A stretch of DNA of 37,711 nucleotides, from positions 1-37,711 of the forward strand of contig CADCAK010000026.1 of the NCBI GenBank assembly GCA_902799385.1, given 5' to 3'. The stretch is from an uncultured bacterium (GTDB taxonomy: Bacteria > Verrucomicrobiota > Kiritimatiellia > RFP12 > UBA1067). The notes below the pieces were generated by a model. That model had not been told where the DNA came from and did no database searches. It saw nothing but the letters and a program-made list of their open reading frames with translations. Shown piece after piece: positions 17,151-34,761 of the stretch. Position 1 is the stretch's first letter. Each line of letters begins with the position of its first letter. Position numbers and translations under genes: made by a program.

Positions 17151-17159
17151 TGGTATAAT
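17151..17159 (+). promoter_or_regulatory. Extended -10 promoter of the fucosidase gene
   Basis: TGGTATAAT preceded by GGAAATA; the -10 hexamer is a perfect TATAAT (17154-17159). It leaves a leader of about 30 bases with AAGGGGAG before the start codon. Confidence 0.75.
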
Positions 17160-22402: not shown

Positions 22403-22411
22403 TGGTATAAT
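22403..22411 (+). promoter_or_regulatory. Extended -10 promoter close to a start codon
   Basis: TGGTATAAT with a perfect TATAAT at 22406-22411, preceded by GGAAAATG. Seven bases separate it from ATG 22419, which predicts a leaderless message if that ATG is used. Confidence 0.7.
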
Positions 22412-22418
22412 ATGCCGC

Positions 22419-22937
22419 ATGAAGAAATCACTTACGACATTTCGGGAAGGGCGGATGCGGCGCAGGCTGCTTCCCCTTGTCGGCGTCACTGCGGCGCTGA
22501 TTGCAGGCGCCACTGGTTGCGCCTCGGTCTATAGCTCTTCGCAGGGCTCGCTTGACGGCCTTGCGTACAAGGGCGCGGACGGCGTGTCGGCTGAGCACGT
22601 GTATATAAAGACGACGGGCTACTACTTCTTCTGGACGGTCCCGCTCGCATCCGGCGACCTACGCTGGAACGACGAGACGAAGTCCATCAACGGCGGCACG
22701 CGCCTCTTCAACGACATGGTGGGGGCGACCGAGCTGCAGGACGCGATGTTCAAGATCGCCGAGACCCGCAACTGCGACGTGGTAGACGTCTCGTTCTTCG
22801 ATTCCGACACTTCTTTCGCCGGGATTAGCACGGGCGGGTTGATCGGGGCGATGTTCGGGTCTTCGCAAATGGGGATTTCCGGCGTGCTCGTGCCGAGGAA
22901 GGAAAAGGCGACAGTTCGGGAAGAAGGTGCGAAATGA
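22419..22937 (+). CDS. Lipoprotein of unknown function (first of a tandem pair)
   Basis: 172 residues from ATG 22419, the position where the promoter predicts transcription to begin. ATG 22455 is an alternative with a weak GGGAAGG site and gives a more usual lipoprotein signal (MRRRLLPLVGVTAALIAGATGC). The lipobox ATG-C places the lipidated Cys before ASVYSSSQGSL. The mature part has GYYFFWTVPLASG, LFNDMVGATELQDAMFKIAE and CDVVDVSFFDSD, then a Gly-rich hydrophobic stretch (GISTGGLIGAMFGSS) that may embed in membrane. The family is not recognised. Its stop overlaps the start of the next lipoprotein gene (ATGA), and the two proteins share a common pattern. Confidence 0.7.
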   Translation: MKKSLTTFREGRMRRRLLPLVGVTAALIAGATGCASVYSSSQGSLDGLAYKGADGVSAEHVYIKTTGYYFFWTVPLASGDLRWNDETKSINGGTRLFNDMVGATELQDAMFKIAETRNCDVVDVSFFDSDTSFAGISTGGLIGAMFGSSQMGISGVLVPRKEKATVREEGAK

Positions 22938-27347: not shown

Positions 27348-27356
27348 TGGTATACT
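27348..27356 (+). promoter_or_regulatory. Extended -10 promoter of folK, at leaderless spacing
   Basis: ATTTTT runs into TGG and TATACT (27351-27356). Only six bases (27357-27362) separate the hexamer from ATG 27363, and no ribosome site precedes that ATG. Confidence 0.75.
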
Positions 27357-27362
27357 GTGCGC

Positions 27363-27890
27363 ATGGAGGTTGAGGAGGGGAGAGTCAGGGCGATTGTCTC
27401 GCTTGGGTCTAACATTGAGCCGCGCACGGAATACCTGTCACGCGCGGTCGATGCGCTTGCGGCGTTTCCGGAGACTAAGCTCGTCGCAGCGAGCGGCGTC
27501 GTCGAGACGGAGCCGGTTGACGTCCCGCCCGAATTCGCAGCCATGAAGTTCATGAACCAGGTCGCGGTGTTCGAGACGGCGCTCTCCGCGCGGGAGTTTT
27601 CGCGGCGGATGCATGCCGTCGAAGATGCCCTCGTTCGGCGGCGCACAGTTCGCAACGGGCCGCGCACCATCGACATAGACCTCGTGGACTTCGGCGGCAT
27701 GGTTTCGGACGATCCCGAACTGACGCTTCCTCATCCGCGTGCGCGGATGCGCGATTTCGTAATGGGTCCGCTTGCAGAGCTGGGGCTTGCGGACTGTCTT
27801 GGGTGTTCCGGCGACAGCGGCGCGGCAAATGCGCCGGGAAAGGGGACCGGCGACAGCGGCGCGGCAAATGCGCCGGGAAAGGGGAGATGA
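27363..27890 (+). CDS. folK: 2-amino-4-hydroxy-6-hydroxymethyldihydropteridine pyrophosphokinase
   Basis: 175 residues from ATG 27363. HPPK transfers pyrophosphate from ATP to hydroxymethyl-dihydropterin in folate synthesis. VSLGSNIEPRTEYLSRAV opens the protein, followed by FMNQVAVFET and the signature VRNGPRTIDIDLVDFG, then LPHPRARMRDFV. After the normal end (LAELGLADCL) there is an extra tail of two 13-residue repeats, GDSGAANAPGKGT and GDSGAANAPGKG, encoded by a perfect 39-bp tandem repeat. The tail contains the 17-bp hairpin repeat seen at 9825. The extension is probably non-essential. trxA starts two bases after the stop, so the two are co-transcribed. Confidence 0.93.
   Translation: MEVEEGRVRAIVSLGSNIEPRTEYLSRAVDALAAFPETKLVAASGVVETEPVDVPPEFAAMKFMNQVAVFETALSAREFSRRMHAVEDALVRRRTVRNGPRTIDIDLVDFGGMVSDDPELTLPHPRARMRDFVMGPLAELGLADCLGCSGDSGAANAPGKGTGDSGAANAPGKGR
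27808..27885 (+). repeat. Perfect 39-bp tandem repeat in the folK 3' end
   Basis: Two identical 39-bp units (27808-27846 and 27847-27885), in frame (13 codons). Each contains GGCGCGGCAAATGCGCC, identical to 9825-9841. A small hairpin element appears to have entered the folK tail and then duplicated. Confidence 0.85.
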
Positions 27891-27891
27891 A

Positions 27892-28200
27892 ATGGAGGTC
27901 AATGTAAACGGCGGCAATTTCGAGGAAGAGGTGCTTCGTTCCGATGTCCCGGTTCTCGTCGACTTCTGGGCCGAGTGGTGCGGGCCTTGCATGATGCTTG
28001 GTCCTGTCGTCGCGGAAGTCGCGAAGGAGAAGGAAGGCGCGCTTAAGGTCTGCAAGGTGAACGTGGACGAGAGCCCCGACCTCGCGGCGAAGTTCGGAAT
28101 CATGTCTATCCCGGCGCTTCTTCTATTCAAGGGCGGCGAGCTTGCCGCGCAGAGGGTCGGCTACGCAGGCAAGGACGAGGTCCTTGCGTTCGTGTCCTGA
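27892..28200 (+). CDS. trxA: Thioredoxin
   Basis: 102 residues from ATG 27892, two bases after the folK stop, with GGGAGA four bases upstream. VLVDFWAEWCGPCMMLGP holds the redox pair C30/C33, and the cis-Pro loop is SIPALLLFKGG. The length and order are those of a standard cytoplasmic thioredoxin. It reduces protein disulfides using thioredoxin reductase, which is not in this window. Confidence 0.96.
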   Translation: MEVNVNGGNFEEEVLRSDVPVLVDFWAEWCGPCMMLGPVVAEVAKEKEGALKVCKVNVDESPDLAAKFGIMSIPALLLFKGGELAAQRVGYAGKDEVLAFVS

Positions 28201-28214
28201 CCGCCCGCGCATTT

Positions 28215-28223
28215 TGGTATAAT
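28215..28223 (+). promoter_or_regulatory. Extended -10 promoter at leaderless spacing
   Basis: GCATTTTGGTATAAT: TGG (28215-28217) and a perfect TATAAT (28218-28223). Seven bases follow before ATG 28231, with no ribosome site for that gene. Confidence 0.78.
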
Positions 28224-28230
28224 AGGCGGC

Positions 28231-28590
28231 ATGGAAGAAATCGACTTCGAGGCAGACACTTTTGAAGACATCGTTGCGAAGGACGACCGCTACGACGGTC
28301 GCGCCTATGCGCTTTTGATGGATGTCGTCCACTATCTCACGAAGGACGGCGCCCACGCCAACGCGGAAGACATAATGGACGAGTTCCGCGAGACTGCGCT
28401 CGACCAGTTCGGGCCTCTCGCCTACCGCGTTCTGACGGAATGGGGTCTTAAGTCATGCGAGGACATAGGCGAGATGATGTTCAACCTCGCGGAATCGCGC
28501 CGCATAGGCAAGGACGAAAACGACACACACGAGAGCTTTATCGGCGGGTACGACTTCGAGGAGGCCTTCCTCGGCCCGTACGAAGTCTGA
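28231..28590 (+). CDS. Minf_1886 family protein (Planctomycetes/Verrucomicrobia-restricted)
   Basis: 119 residues. It follows the family pattern: DDRYDGRAYALLMDVVHYL, then AHANAEDIMDEFRETALDQF, GPLAYRVLTEWGLKSCEDIG, MMFNLAES and GYDFEEAF. These small acidic proteins are known mainly from Verrucomicrobia and Planctomycetes (the TIGR04138 family) and have no assigned function. It is therefore a lineage marker for the window. Its promoter's -10 box ends seven bases before the ATG, so the transcript is probably leaderless. The DEAD-box gene follows after 27 bases and may be in the same transcript. Confidence 0.85.
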   Translation: MEEIDFEADTFEDIVAKDDRYDGRAYALLMDVVHYLTKDGAHANAEDIMDEFRETALDQFGPLAYRVLTEWGLKSCEDIGEMMFNLAESRRIGKDENDTHESFIGGYDFEEAFLGPYEV

Positions 28591-28617: not shown

Positions 28618-29913
28618 ATGTTTGAGAACACGGTATTCGGGCGGCTTGACCAGAAGCTGCAGCACGCGATAAAGGACGCCGGCTACGAGACGCCGACTCC
28701 CATACAGGAAAAGGCGATTCCATATCTCCTCGACGGGCGCGACCTGATCGGCTGCGCGCAGACGGGGACCGGCAAGACGGCGGCGTTCATGCTGCCGATC
28801 CTGAACCACCTCGTGAGGGAACGGAAGCCGCGCCGCATCGGCCACCCGCGTGCGCTCGTCCTGTCGCCTACGCGCGAGCTCGCCGTGCAGACCGCCGAGA
28901 ATGTGAAGCGCTACTCGAAGTACGCGCAGCTGCCGTTCGCGTGCCTCATCGGCGGCGTGAGCCAGCACGGGCAGGTCAAAGACGTCAAGAAGGGCGCGGA
29001 GACCGTCGTCGCGTGCCCTGGGCGGCTCATCGACCTAATGAACCAGGGCATTCTCTATCTCGACCAGGTTGAGTGCTTCGTCCTCGATGAGGCGGACCGC
29101 ATGCTCGACATGGGCTTCCTGCCCGACATCAAGCGCATAATCTCGAAGCTCCCGAAGTCCAGGCAGTCGCTTTTCTTCTCCGCGACGATGCCGCCGCCAG
29201 TCCTCAAGCTCGCTGGCGAACTCGTCCACGACCCCGCGTCGGTCACAATCTCGCCCGAGACGCCGACGGTCGAGAAGATCAACCAGAAGGTGATGTTCGT
29301 CGCGAAGAGCCAGAAGGACGCGCTTCTCGCGCATCTTCTTGAACAGCATCCCGAGTGGAACAGGGTAATTGTCTTCACCAAGATGCGCCACGGCGCGGAC
29401 CGCGTCGTGAAGAAGCTTTCCCGCGCCGGCATAAACTGCGCGGCAATCCATTCCGACAAGACGCAGGGCCAGCGCACCCGCGCACTCGATGGCTTCAGGC
29501 GTGGCGACGTTCGCGTTCTCGTCGCGACTGACATCGCCTCGCGCGGAATCGACGTCCCCGACATTTCGTGCGTCGTCAACATGGAGCTGCCGCTTGAGAC
29601 CGAGTCGTACGTCCACCGCATCGGCCGGACGGCGCGCGCGGGCGAGTCGGGCGCGGCAATATCGTTCGTGACGTACGAGGAGCGCGGCCAGCTGAAGGCG
29701 ATAGAGCGGCTCATCAGGAAGTCGATTCCAGTAGACCGCGACCATCCCTTCGAGGCGCAGCCGGACCTGCCGCAGCCTGCGTGGGTCGCCCCTGCGCGTA
29801 GCGGGCAGAACAACAAGGGCGGCGGGCACGGGCCGCACGGCAAGCGCCGCCGCAAGTCGTTTGCCGGACGCCGCCAGGTTGACTTCGGGCAGAAGGGGGG
29901 CGGTCGCAGATGA
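28618..29913 (+). CDS. rhlE: DEAD-box ATP-dependent RNA helicase, RhlE-like
   Basis: 431 residues; AGAGG lies 5 bases before ATG 28618. The order of helicase motifs is complete: Q motif (PTPIQEKAI), motif I AQTGTGKT (47-54), PTRELA, motif II DEAD in VLDEADRMLDMGF, SAT (SATMP), and the C-terminal VATDIASRGIDVPD and HRIGRTARAG. A short basic, Gly-rich tail (GPHGKRRRKSFAGRR) would bind RNA. RhlE-type helicases act in ribosome assembly and RNA decay. Its stop overlaps the ATG of the following nucleotidyltransferase gene by 4 bases. Confidence 0.95.
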   Translation: MFENTVFGRLDQKLQHAIKDAGYETPTPIQEKAIPYLLDGRDLIGCAQTGTGKTAAFMLPILNHLVRERKPRRIGHPRALVLSPTRELAVQTAENVKRYSKYAQLPFACLIGGVSQHGQVKDVKKGAETVVACPGRLIDLMNQGILYLDQVECFVLDEADRMLDMGFLPDIKRIISKLPKSRQSLFFSATMPPPVLKLAGELVHDPASVTISPETPTVEKINQKVMFVAKSQKDALLAHLLEQHPEWNRVIVFTKMRHGADRVVKKLSRAGINCAAIHSDKTQGQRTRALDGFRRGDVRVLVATDIASRGIDVPDISCVVNMELPLETESYVHRIGRTARAGESGAAISFVTYEERGQLKAIERLIRKSIPVDRDHPFEAQPDLPQPAWVAPARSGQNNKGGGHGPHGKRRRKSFAGRRQVDFGQKGGGRR

Positions 29914-30651: not shown

Positions 30652-33591
30652 ATGAATGCGAACGTCCTTATCGAGGCATCGGCAGGAACCGGCAAGACCC
30701 AGGCGCTTGCCGAGCGGCTTATCGCGCTCGTCAGGGGCGGCCTTGAGCCGCACGAGATAGTCGCGCTTACCTTTTCCCGCGCTGCGGCGGGCGAGATATT
30801 CGAGCGCTTCGTCTCGCTGCTCGCGGAGCGCGCGAAGGACGACCCGTCGTGCGCGGCGCTTCTCCGCAAGGTTATCGCGACGCAGCACCTCTCGCAGATA
30901 GGGACCCTCGACAGCTTCCTCATGCGCATCGTAAGGAGCTTTCCACTCGAACTTGGGCTTGGCGGCGCCGTCGAGATGATGGACGGCTACCGCGCGGGGC
31001 ATGAGCTGGACCGGATTTCGTTCTCGATCCTCCGGCGGACGGATGCGTCCGCACGCCGCGCGTTCACAGACGCGTTCTCACTCGCGATGAACGGAGAGGA
31101 CGTGAGGAGCTTCATCGGCTCATACCGCGACTTCGTCAGGAAGTGGCAGTCGCTCGTCCGCGCCAATCCGTTGGAACGCGCATGGGGCGACGCGTCGTCG
31201 ATATGGGGCGAGTCTCCGGAATGGGCCGCGACCGACGAGGAGCAGCTTTCGCGCCTTGCCGACGGCCTCGTCGGGATATGCGACTCGGATGCGTGGGCCG
31301 AGTTCGTCGAATGGGTGCGGAACTTTCGCGGTAGCTTCGACGGCCTCAAGGGGTTCGCGAAGAAGTTCTTCGAGATGGACGGCTTCTTCTCCGGCGCGAC
31401 AGTTGACGTGACGTTCAACCGGAAGGCGTATTCCTTCGGCGGTGCGCAGGCGCGGGCGGTGCGCGCCGCCGTACTTGGAGTATGCGGCTTCGTCGTGCGC
31501 CGTCGGCTTGAGTTCGCCCGCGGCGTCTACCGGCTCATATCTGAATACGAGAAGGACTACGATGCCAAGGTCCGCAGCAGGGGGCTTCTCGTCTTCGACG
31601 ACGTGCCGCGCCTCGTCGCGTCCCTCCCGGACGACGTCCGCCTCGCGCTCGAATACCGCCTCGACGCGAAGATACGCGCATGGGCGCTCGACGAGTTCCA
31701 GGACACGAGCCGCGAACAGTGGGCCGCGCTCTCGCCGCTCGTGGAAGAGGCGAAGTCGTCGGACGGCGAAAAGTCGGTCTTTATCGTCGGTGACAGAAAG
31801 CAGGCGATCTACGGCTGGCGCAACGGCGATGTAGGGATATTCCGCCGCGAGGGGCAAAGCGGGGCGTACGAGCCAATGAAGCTGAACGAGACATACCGCT
31901 CGTCGCCCGCCGTCGTCGAGGCGGTGAACCGCGTATTCGTGCGCGGGCGGCTGCGTGGCGACTTCCCCAGCTGGGACGCGAGCGAGCATATCTCGGCGAA
32001 GCCGAATATGCCCGGGTTCGTCCAAGCGGTCGTCGCTGCAAGTCCGAAGTTTGACGACTGCCTGGAGCCGGTGTTCAACGCGCTCGCCGCCGTCGATCCA
32101 GTGAGGCGCTCGATTGCCGCCGCCGTCCTCGTGAGGAACAACGCGTCGGGCGAGAAGATAGCCGCGTACCTGAAGCAAAGGGGAATCGGGGGCGTCGTGT
32201 GGGAGGGCGAAAGCGCGATTCTCGACACGCCCGCCCTGCAGGGCTTCGTCGATCTCGTGAAGCTCGCCGATCACCCGGGCTACCAGCAGGCATACCGCCA
32301 CTTCTCTTCTACGCCTCTCGCGGCGGCGCTCTATCCCGACGGCGTCCCGTCCGCAGCCGACGTGTCGCAGCTCGCCTCGCAGTCGTTCACGGCGAAGGGG
32401 CTCGTGCGCACGTTCCGCGACCTGCGGGCGCGCCTTCCAGAGAGCCCAGCCGAGGCGTGGAGCGAATTTACCGAGTCGCGCTTCACCGACATGCTGCATG
32501 CGGCGGCCGAGTTCGAGCTTGGGCTTGAGCCGGGGACACGCCTTTCCGACTTCGCCGACTTCCTCGCTGCGAAGAGGAAGCGCAACCTCGCAGAACCCGG
32601 CAAGATCAAGATAATGACGATACACCGTTCGAAGGGCCTCGGCTTCGAATATGTCGTCCTTCCGCTGTACGAGCCAGACGCCCTCAACGCGTCGTCGGAC
32701 GGCGCGCTCGTCGCCGACGGCTGGGTTCTGCCCGACCCCGGTACGCGTGTGTCGAAGATGGTGCCGGGGCTTTCCGGCGCGCGCGCGGCCCGGCAGGAGC
32801 GCGTCGAGGAAGAGGCGCTTTGCACCTACTACGTTGCGATGACTCGCGCGAAGAACGCGATGACGATAGTCTGCCGCCCGCCGGCGAAGAGCGATGCTCC
32901 GCGCTACATTTCCGATTTCGTGCGCGAGGCGCTGCCGGAGCCGGTCGGCGACCCCAAGTGGTACGAGAAGCTCGCCGCAGGCGACGGGAAGCGCCACGTC
33001 GCGGCGGATGTTCCGCGCGAGTTCGCGCGCGGGAAGCGCGAGAGCGTCCGCCGCCGCCTTCCGTCGCTCGCGTTCCGCTCGGGGATGTCGGCTGGCGAGC
33101 TTTTCGCCGACGGCTCCGCGCGCCAGGCGGCGCGGCAGAGGGGAACGGACGTCCACGCGCAGCTTGAGGCGATTGAGTGGATCGACCCCTCGGCACCGAA
33201 GAGTGACCTTGAGCGGCAGGTTCTCGCGAACGGCTGGACGGACGCGTTCGTGAAGGGCGAAGACGCGACGGCGCTGTGGCGCGAGCGCGGCTACGAGCGG
33301 CTCGTCGGCGCGGAGTGGGAGTCGGGCCAGTTCGATCGCGTCGTGTTTCGCGGCGAAGGCGCCGCGCGGCGCGCGTGCGTGTACGATTTCAAGACGAATG
33401 CGCCGCGTCGCGGCGAGACGGCGGACGAGTTCGCCGCGAGGATGCGCGAGGCGTACTCCGGCCAGATGGCGTCCTACCGCGCGGCAGTCGCGTCGCTTGC
33501 GGGCCTTCCGCCAGGGCGCGTCTCGGCCGTCCTGCTCCTTGTCTCGACCGGAGCCGAGGTCGGCTTCGCCCATGCGGCAAATATGCTATAA
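30652..33591 (+). CDS. addA: AddA-like UvrD/RecB-family helicase with C-terminal nuclease
   Basis: 979 residues from ATG 30652, with AGGGG five bases upstream; it begins 28 bases after galU. Superfamily I motifs: I ASAGTGKT (9-16), Ia LTFSRAAAGEI, II LDEFQDTS, III FIVGDRKQAIYGWR, IV LNETYRSS, V IMTIHRSKGLGFEYVVLP, VI YVAMTRAKNAM. The C-terminal nuclease has GTDVHAQLEAI, FDRVVFRG and VYDFKTN (D912, K914), then GQMASYRAAV. The pair with the AddB-like gene (23320) would resect double-strand breaks. It is shorter than typical AddA (~1,200). The promoter of the flavodiiron gene lies in its 3' end. Confidence 0.88.
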   Translation: MNANVLIEASAGTGKTQALAERLIALVRGGLEPHEIVALTFSRAAAGEIFERFVSLLAERAKDDPSCAALLRKVIATQHLSQIGTLDSFLMRIVRSFPLELGLGGAVEMMDGYRAGHELDRISFSILRRTDASARRAFTDAFSLAMNGEDVRSFIGSYRDFVRKWQSLVRANPLERAWGDASSIWGESPEWAATDEEQLSRLADGLVGICDSDAWAEFVEWVRNFRGSFDGLKGFAKKFFEMDGFFSGATVDVTFNRKAYSFGGAQARAVRAAVLGVCGFVVRRRLEFARGVYRLISEYEKDYDAKVRSRGLLVFDDVPRLVASLPDDVRLALEYRLDAKIRAWALDEFQDTSREQWAALSPLVEEAKSSDGEKSVFIVGDRKQAIYGWRNGDVGIFRREGQSGAYEPMKLNETYRSSPAVVEAVNRVFVRGRLRGDFPSWDASEHISAKPNMPGFVQAVVAASPKFDDCLEPVFNALAAVDPVRRSIAAAVLVRNNASGEKIAAYLKQRGIGGVVWEGESAILDTPALQGFVDLVKLADHPGYQQAYRHFSSTPLAAALYPDGVPSAADVSQLASQSFTAKGLVRTFRDLRARLPESPAEAWSEFTESRFTDMLHAAAEFELGLEPGTRLSDFADFLAAKRKRNLAEPGKIKIMTIHRSKGLGFEYVVLPLYEPDALNASSDGALVADGWVLPDPGTRVSKMVPGLSGARAARQERVEEEALCTYYVAMTRAKNAMTIVCRPPAKSDAPRYISDFVREALPEPVGDPKWYEKLAAGDGKRHVAADVPREFARGKRESVRRRLPSLAFRSGMSAGELFADGSARQAARQRGTDVHAQLEAIEWIDPSAPKSDLERQVLANGWTDAFVKGEDATALWRERGYERLVGAEWESGQFDRVVFRGEGAARRACVYDFKTNAPRRGETADEFAARMREAYSGQMASYRAAVASLAGLPPGRVSAVLLLVSTGAEVGFAHAANML

Positions 33592-33592
33592 T
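33584..33592 (+). promoter_or_regulatory. Extended -10 promoter of the flavodiiron gene, inside addA
   Basis: TGCTATAAT preceded by CAAATA; TATAAT is at 33587-33592, eight bases before ATG 33601, and overlaps the addA stop. The message could be leaderless or have a one-base leader. Confidence 0.68.
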
Positions 33593-33600
33593 ACCCAACT

Positions 33601-34761
33601 ATGAAGATTACAGACGATATCGTGTACGTCGGTGTCAACGATCATGACATCGACCTTTTCGAGGGCCAGTTCGAAGTTCCGCTCGGCATGGCCTACAATT
33701 CATACGTCGTCAAGGGCGAGAAGGTCGCCGTGATGGACACGGTCGATGCGCGCTTCGGCGACGAATGGCTTAAGAACGTCGCAGCCGCGACCGACAAGGT
33801 CGACTATCTAGTCGTCCACCACATGGAGCCCGACCACTCCTCGAACATCGCGCGCTTTGCAGAGGCGTATCCGAATGCGAAGATCGTCTCTTCCATGCCG
33901 GCGTTCTCGATCATGAAGAACTACTTCGGCACCGATTTCGCCGACCGTCGCGTCGTCGTCAAGGAGGGCGACACGCTCGACCTCGGCGGGCACACGCTTG
34001 CGTTCGTCGGCGCGCCGATGGTGCACTGGCCCGAAGTCGTAGTCAGCTACGACTCGGCGACGAAGACGCTTTTCTCCGCCGACGGCTTCGGCAAGTTCGG
34101 CGCGAACGACAAGGTCGATCCCGAGGGGTGGGACTGCGAGGCGCGTCGCTACTACTTCGGCATCGTCGGCAAGTTCGGCATGCAGGTGCAGGCGCTTCTC
34201 AAGAAGGCGGCGACACTTGACATCGCGCGCATCTGCCCGCTTCACGGCCCCGTGCTCCAGACGCCCGAGGAAATCGCCCATGTCCTCAAGCAGTACCAGA
34301 CCTGGAGCTCCTACGGCGTCGAGACCGAGGGCGTCTGCGTCGCCTACACTTCGGTCTACGGCCACACCAAGGCCGTCGTCGAGAAGTTCTGCGAGATCCT
34401 TAAGGCGAAGGGCTGCCCCAAGGTCGCCTGCGCCGACCTCGCTCGCGACGACATGTACGAGACGATCGAGGACGGCTTCCGCTACGGGCGGCTCGTCCTC
34501 GCGACGACGACTTACAACACCGGAGTATTCCCGAAGATGGAGGAATACATCCGCCATCTCCTTCGTCGCAACTACCAGAACCGCAAGGTCGGCTTCATCG
34601 AGAACGGCTCGTGGGGCCCGATGGCCGCGAAGGGCATGAAGGACCTTCTCTCCGCCGCGAAGGGGCTCTCGTTCTGCGAGGCGACAGTCACGGTGAAGGG
34701 CGCGATGACGGACGACACCGTCGCGCAGCTCGAGAAGCTTGCCGGCGAAATACTGAAGTAG
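33601..34761 (+). CDS. fprA: Flavodiiron protein (A-type flavoprotein)
   Basis: 386 residues. The metallo-beta-lactamase-like diiron domain has VHHMEPDHSS (H74, E76, D78, H79), MVHWPE and FSADGFGKFG, and LHGPVL supplies the last His. The C-terminal flavodoxin domain has VAYTSVYGHTKAV for FMN phosphate and TTTYNTGVFPKM. The family reduces O2 to water (or NO to N2O) in the cytoplasm of anaerobes, using electrons from rubredoxin or F420. No rubredoxin domain is fused here. Its presence points to an anaerobe that meets some oxygen. An aminotransferase follows 14 bases later. Confidence 0.95.
   Translation: MKITDDIVYVGVNDHDIDLFEGQFEVPLGMAYNSYVVKGEKVAVMDTVDARFGDEWLKNVAAATDKVDYLVVHHMEPDHSSNIARFAEAYPNAKIVSSMPAFSIMKNYFGTDFADRRVVVKEGDTLDLGGHTLAFVGAPMVHWPEVVVSYDSATKTLFSADGFGKFGANDKVDPEGWDCEARRYYFGIVGKFGMQVQALLKKAATLDIARICPLHGPVLQTPEEIAHVLKQYQTWSSYGVETEGVCVAYTSVYGHTKAVVEKFCEILKAKGCPKVACADLARDDMYETIEDGFRYGRLVLATTTYNTGVFPKMEEYIRHLLRRNYQNRKVGFIENGSWGPMAAKGMKDLLSAAKGLSFCEATVTVKGAMTDDTVAQLEKLAGEILK

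Follow-up and report, generated by a model that had tools for sequence, protein, structure and literature searches.

Known leaderless genes preceded by a −10 element

TA-led leaderless genes have been reported across bacteria (Zheng 2011, PMC3160421). As in the genome studied here, they carry a TANNNT motif ~12 bp before the start codon, an arrangement interpreted as leaderless, and its authors point out that an extended TG may be part of the box; Verrucomicrobia are absent from the main text of that study, and the uncultured Kiritimatiellae apparently fall outside its sample. In Deinococcus-Thermus, where the promoter function of −10-motif genes was shown experimentally (Zhong 2025, PMC12340547), the hexamer lies mostly 6–7 bp before the ORF and SD-led genes coexist, as they do here, but the motif is a TANNNT (most often TACACT) found at ~30% of ORFs, whereas our genome uses a TG-extended TGGTATAAT at ~10% of called genes. 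In M. tuberculosis, leaderless genes make up about a quarter of those whose primary start has been mapped (Cortes 2013, PMC3898074). There too, a −35 element is missing and the mapped start is usually a purine between a C (−1) and a T (+2), i.e., C|AT; in contrast, TGN precedes only 7% of the TANNNT motifs, versus nearly all the boxes counted here, a share that partly results from our search criterion, TGGTATAAT with no more than one mismatch. The GeneMarkS-2 survey of leaderless transcription, as cited in PMC9581028, stays at the survey level and apparently does not name this order. Regarding the Kiritimatiellae themselves, one paper treats SD usage, the class appearing in its anti-SD table, while no earlier report of leaderless genes was found among the open-licence papers searched. 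Based on these comparisons, the mechanism considered below appears to be the same in kind as that of known −10-led leaderless genes, from which it would differ by its strong TGG extension and its lineage.

The Minf_1886 locus and its companions

The window, i.e., the whole stretch of DNA that was analysed, is 37,711 nt long (contig CADCAK010000026.1 of assembly GCA_902799385.1, from an uncultured bacterium of the Kiritimatiellia). A first, sequence-only reading had reported a perfect box 7 bases before the ATG of a Minf_1886 family gene devoid of SD, which we confirm, with the box at 28215–28223 and the start codon at 28231. The locus is organised as follows:

27892–28200, + strand: thioredoxin gene, 30 nt before the Minf_1886 ATG (family match)
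28215–28223, + strand: extended −10 element TGGTATAAT (sequence match; motif profile of 60 sites)
28224–28230, + strand: discriminator/gap AGGCGGC, 7 nt, last base C (read from the sequence)
28231, + strand: A of the ATG, predicted transcription start (from the gap and the C|A context)
28231–28590, + strand: Minf_1886 family gene (TIGR04138), 119 aa (profile match, E 1.5e-27; conserved N-terminus)
28618–29913, + strand: DEAD-box RNA helicase gene, 27 nt after the Minf_1886 gene, with GAGG before its start (family match)

The T at 28213 fits a TRTG-like extension of the box, and the first T of the TANNNT hexamer stands at 28218 for an ATG at 28231, in line with the ~12–13 nt used to recognise −10-led leaderless genes. 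Upstream of this ATG, GGAG, GAGG and AGGA are all absent at SD distance. The start codon itself (ATG, 28231–28233) is well supported by comparison with other genomes, because the protein begins with MEEIDF or a close variant at the same point in most of the 41 named Minf_1886 relatives. Folding of the first 60 nt of the RNA yielded nothing out of the ordinary. Separately, the 19-mer TGGTATAATAGGCGGCATG of window positions 28215–28233 recurs before an unrelated gene on contig C4 (stretch L024, 1501–1519).

Three companion candidates had been proposed elsewhere in the window, and all proved to be real, with gaps of 6 nt (folK), 7 nt (the gene at 22419) and 8 nt (the flavodiiron protein gene). 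They are listed below, along with a contrasting promoter:

17151–17159, + strand: leadered promoter containing the same box, its downstream ATG preceded by GGGGAG (contrast case; sequence match)
22403–22411, + strand: TGGTATAAT, gap of 7 nt to the ATG at 22419 (sequence match; gap of 7–8 nt in three relatives)
22419–22937, + strand: gene termed lipoprotein in the sequence-only reading (family search without match)
27348–27356, + strand: TGGTATACT, gap of 6 nt to the folK ATG at 27363 (sequence match; gap of 6 nt kept in relatives)
27363–27890, + strand: folK (HPPK), leaderless type (Pfam HPPK match)
33584–33592, + strand: TGCTATAAT, gap of 8 nt to the ATG at 33601 (sequence match)
33601–34761, + strand: flavodiiron protein gene, of leaderless type in this genome but with a leader in many relatives (family match)

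Altogether, TGGTATAAT is matched with no more than one mismatch at 10 sites of the window, versus 1.0 expected by chance, and none of 100 shuffles reached 10. As a side observation, the 3′ end of folK contains a 39-bp perfect tandem duplication (window 27808–27885), which adds a repeated GDSGAANAPGKG tail; the alignments of the closest relatives reach only ~residue 168 and include a stop.

Genome-wide distances between box and start codon

At 2.7 Mb and 77.5% completeness, the host genome (G000) is a draft, as are all the genomes compared to it. G000 contains 153 occurrences of the pattern TGGTATAATN{3,12}ATG and none of the reversed pattern; since the latter control preserves composition only, antisense, permuted-box and shifted-gap controls were added. 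On contigs C1–C16, 53 gaps fall at 6–9 nt, versus ~3.2 per position at 13–42 nt (Poisson P 6e-17). Genes were then called by codon usage over 838 kb (the window and 40 further stretches of the genome), using a simple, home-made caller that misplaced the starts of folK and of the 22419 gene by a few codons, and gaps were counted only to plausible starts of called genes. With at most one mismatch allowed, this set has no gap of 1–5 nt, then 12, 15, 11, 9 and 6 gaps of 6, 7, 8, 9 and 10 nt, respectively, some genes having gaps of up to 10–12 nt. After this abrupt onset at 6 nt, the histogram is near zero at 12–18 nt and climbs again from 19 nt. Leaderless-type genes amount to 60 of the 614 called genes (~10%); as the count is restricted to boxes with zero or one mismatch to TGGTATAAT, such percentages are lower bounds for −10-led starts generally. 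Against these 60 genes, the antisense box yielded none, and permuted boxes averaged 0.87 (maximum 6).

SD-like motifs (GGAG, GAGG or AGGA at −15 to −5) were found in 0/60 leaderless-type genes, while an SD accompanies 1/20 sites at 13–18 nt and 40/64 sites at 19–36 nt. Taken together, the gap peaks and the SD distribution point to two promoter populations in this genome, one of leaderless type and the other SD-led. The 16S 3′ end reads GGATCACCTCC and the gene ends GGATCACCTCCTTT, which indicates that the anti-SD and the SD route are intact, and ~41% of called genes have an SD according to a crude test.

The sequence-only reading had held leaderless translation to be a regular route in this lineage beside SD-led genes, and had named the genome-wide box-to-ATG distances as the test that could refute it. 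Once run, this test gave a peak at 6–9 nt and the claim was not refuted. Its first part stands in sequence terms, given ~10% of genes of leaderless type, a larger SD class and an intact anti-SD; as for the lineage, the Minf_1886 arrangement turned out to be conserved only in close relatives, while recurring in some others (see below).

When the products of leaderless-type genes with gaps of 6–7 nt were scanned, 16/20 had a Pfam match, many of them to housekeeping families: imidazoleglycerol-phosphate dehydratase, glycerol-3-phosphate acyltransferase, RsfS, cyclophilin, cytidylyltransferase, dihydrodipicolinate synthase, NAD synthase and ArgJ. In many of these products, the Pfam domain begins near residue 1–13, which supports the chosen start codons.

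Start-site signature and promoter type

At gaps of 6–7 nt, the base before the ATG is a C in 27/27 called ATG genes, versus 50/192 (26%) in SD-led genes (P 1.6e-14), and in 28/32 cases in the raw genome-wide list compiled without gene filter. At a gap of 8 nt, the −1 base is mostly A or T, with a C at −2 in about half of the cases. Such a C|ATG pattern would be expected if the polymerase started 7–8 nt past the box with a pyrimidine–purine preference. The 60 aligned sites, which were chosen for the box, carry no information at the −35 element; a T is strongly favoured two positions ahead of the TG. Within the limits of that selection, they conform to the sigma70 extended −10 type (TGG + TATAAT), in which TGN directly precedes the hexamer and the −35 element is dispensable. 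ATG starts are also more frequent in leaderless-type genes (55/60) than in SD-led genes (194/250; P 0.01), a soft difference given that TTG was disallowed in the leaderless class. We also noticed divergent pairs of leaderless-type genes (L033, 5796–5852; L085, 13369–13423; L046, 15547–15617), whose start codons are only ~50–70 bp apart, so that the two divergent promoters nearly overlap.

Conservation and spread within Kiritimatiellae

Proteins closely related to that of Minf_1886 (identity of up to 97%) are encoded in MAGs of uncultured Kiritimatiellae/Verrucomicrobia, and many of these MAGs originate from the gut of cow, goat, sheep and yak. Among the 41 named relatives, 19 have the box 6–12 nt before the start without SD (6 of these being near-identical, while the others differ in their flanks); most of the remaining ones show an SD-like motif or lie within ~20 nt of the upstream gene. 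At this gene, the arrangement is thus not fixed: it is conserved in close relatives only and recurs in some others. For folK, the gap of 6 nt is kept in five close and two distant relatives. The flavodiiron protein gene has gaps of 7–9 nt in five genomes, including that of the window, versus gaps of 25–27 nt and a leader in three others. From these differences between orthologues, single genes appear to switch mode within one genus.

The share of leaderless-type genes reaches 31/258 (12%) in G254, a genome of the same genus, 6/123 (5%) in G283, from another genus of the family, and 0/136 in G101, from a third one. In the large genomes G101 and G210, which represent one genus of the same family, the exact box is absent 5–9 nt before ATG codons; the trait seems to have been lost, or to be spelled differently, in that genus. 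At the phylum scale, enrichment of the exact pattern is seen in some genera of the family of the window and, weakly, in a sister family. A matched test at the class level, in which TATAAT boxes with a C-preceded ATG were counted at gaps of 6–8 nt versus control gaps of 14–16 nt, gave 190 vs. 14 for the family of the window (two genomes), 170 vs. 5 for the sister family (six genomes) and 765 vs. 688 for the remainder of the class (88 genomes). Judging from the second ratio, the sister family also uses the arrangement, with less TGG. By these counts, two families of a single order show the trait strongly, and the class otherwise has essentially none of it. On balance, we lean towards one order of Kiritimatiellae having expanded −10-box leaderless expression (strongly TGG-extended in the family of the window), with almost none in the rest of the class, and single genes shifting between leaderless and SD-led expression via promoter position. 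In G166, TATAATATTTACATG is repeated several times, a pattern more suggestive of a mobile element than of promoters.

Proposed mechanism and alternative explanations

The box, the gap, the absence of SD, the start codon, the genome-wide peak, the C|ATG context and the intact anti-SD are directly seen, whereas the use of the box for transcription, the exact position of the 5′ end and the route of the ribosome are inferred. On this basis, it is very likely that sigma70 extended −10 promoters yield leaderless mRNAs in this organism. The box would serve as the −10 element of a TG-extended housekeeping (sigma70-type) promoter lacking a recognisable −35, from which the RNA polymerase would start ~7–8 nt downstream, i.e., at the A of the ATG in the case of Minf_1886. 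The 5′ end of the resulting mRNA would then be the start codon, the leader being absent, and translation would follow the leaderless route, in which the ribosome and the initiator tRNA bind the 5′-terminal AUG. Located at least 19 nt upstream, the same type of promoter would give ordinary SD-led mRNAs in the same genome.

An unlikely variant is that initiation occurs 1–6 nt before the ATG, and that the mRNAs have very short leaders instead of being strictly leaderless. Bacterial start sites do shift by a few nt, and gaps of 8–12 nt, of which some genes reach 10–12, would give leaders of ~1–5 nt, not zero. However, the C that is invariant before the ATG at gaps of 6–7 nt and displaced at a gap of 8 nt fits initiation at the A itself or at an adjacent base. 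Moreover, the functional claim would be little altered, since mRNAs with leaders of a few nt are usually classed with leaderless mRNAs.

The second alternative concerns Minf_1886 itself, whose box might be little used, the gene relying on read-through transcripts of the thioredoxin gene and on SD-independent translation, e.g., by reinitiation across the 30-nt gap. The two genes do lie on the same strand with this spacing, and read-through RNA may also carry Minf_1886; about half of the relatives of the genus are devoid of the box at this gene, and in many relatives Minf_1886 stands 3–20 nt from the upstream gene, sometimes without box. Yet an exact extended −10 element at the modal gap of the genome, with a C before the ATG, and the recurrence of box and gap in relatives with other upstream sequences make this explanation quite improbable. 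Finally, that the boxes are chance AT-rich words or that start codons are misassigned can be dismissed, even though most bacteria are AT-rich upstream of genes and our gene caller is simple, as the antisense, permuted-box and shifted-gap controls reject chance AT-richness (~1 for scrambled and 0 for antisense boxes vs. 60, 0 reversed vs. 153) and the start codon is conserved in relatives.

Significance

If leaderless expression from extended −10 promoters is true of this lineage, it would be extended to common uncultured bacteria of the ruminant gut, in which gene-start annotation, usually SD-based, would gain a second signal. Furthermore, as two families show the trait strongly while their neighbours lack it, and as orthologues differ in mode, the group would offer natural pairs for studying the switch between SD-led and leaderless translation.
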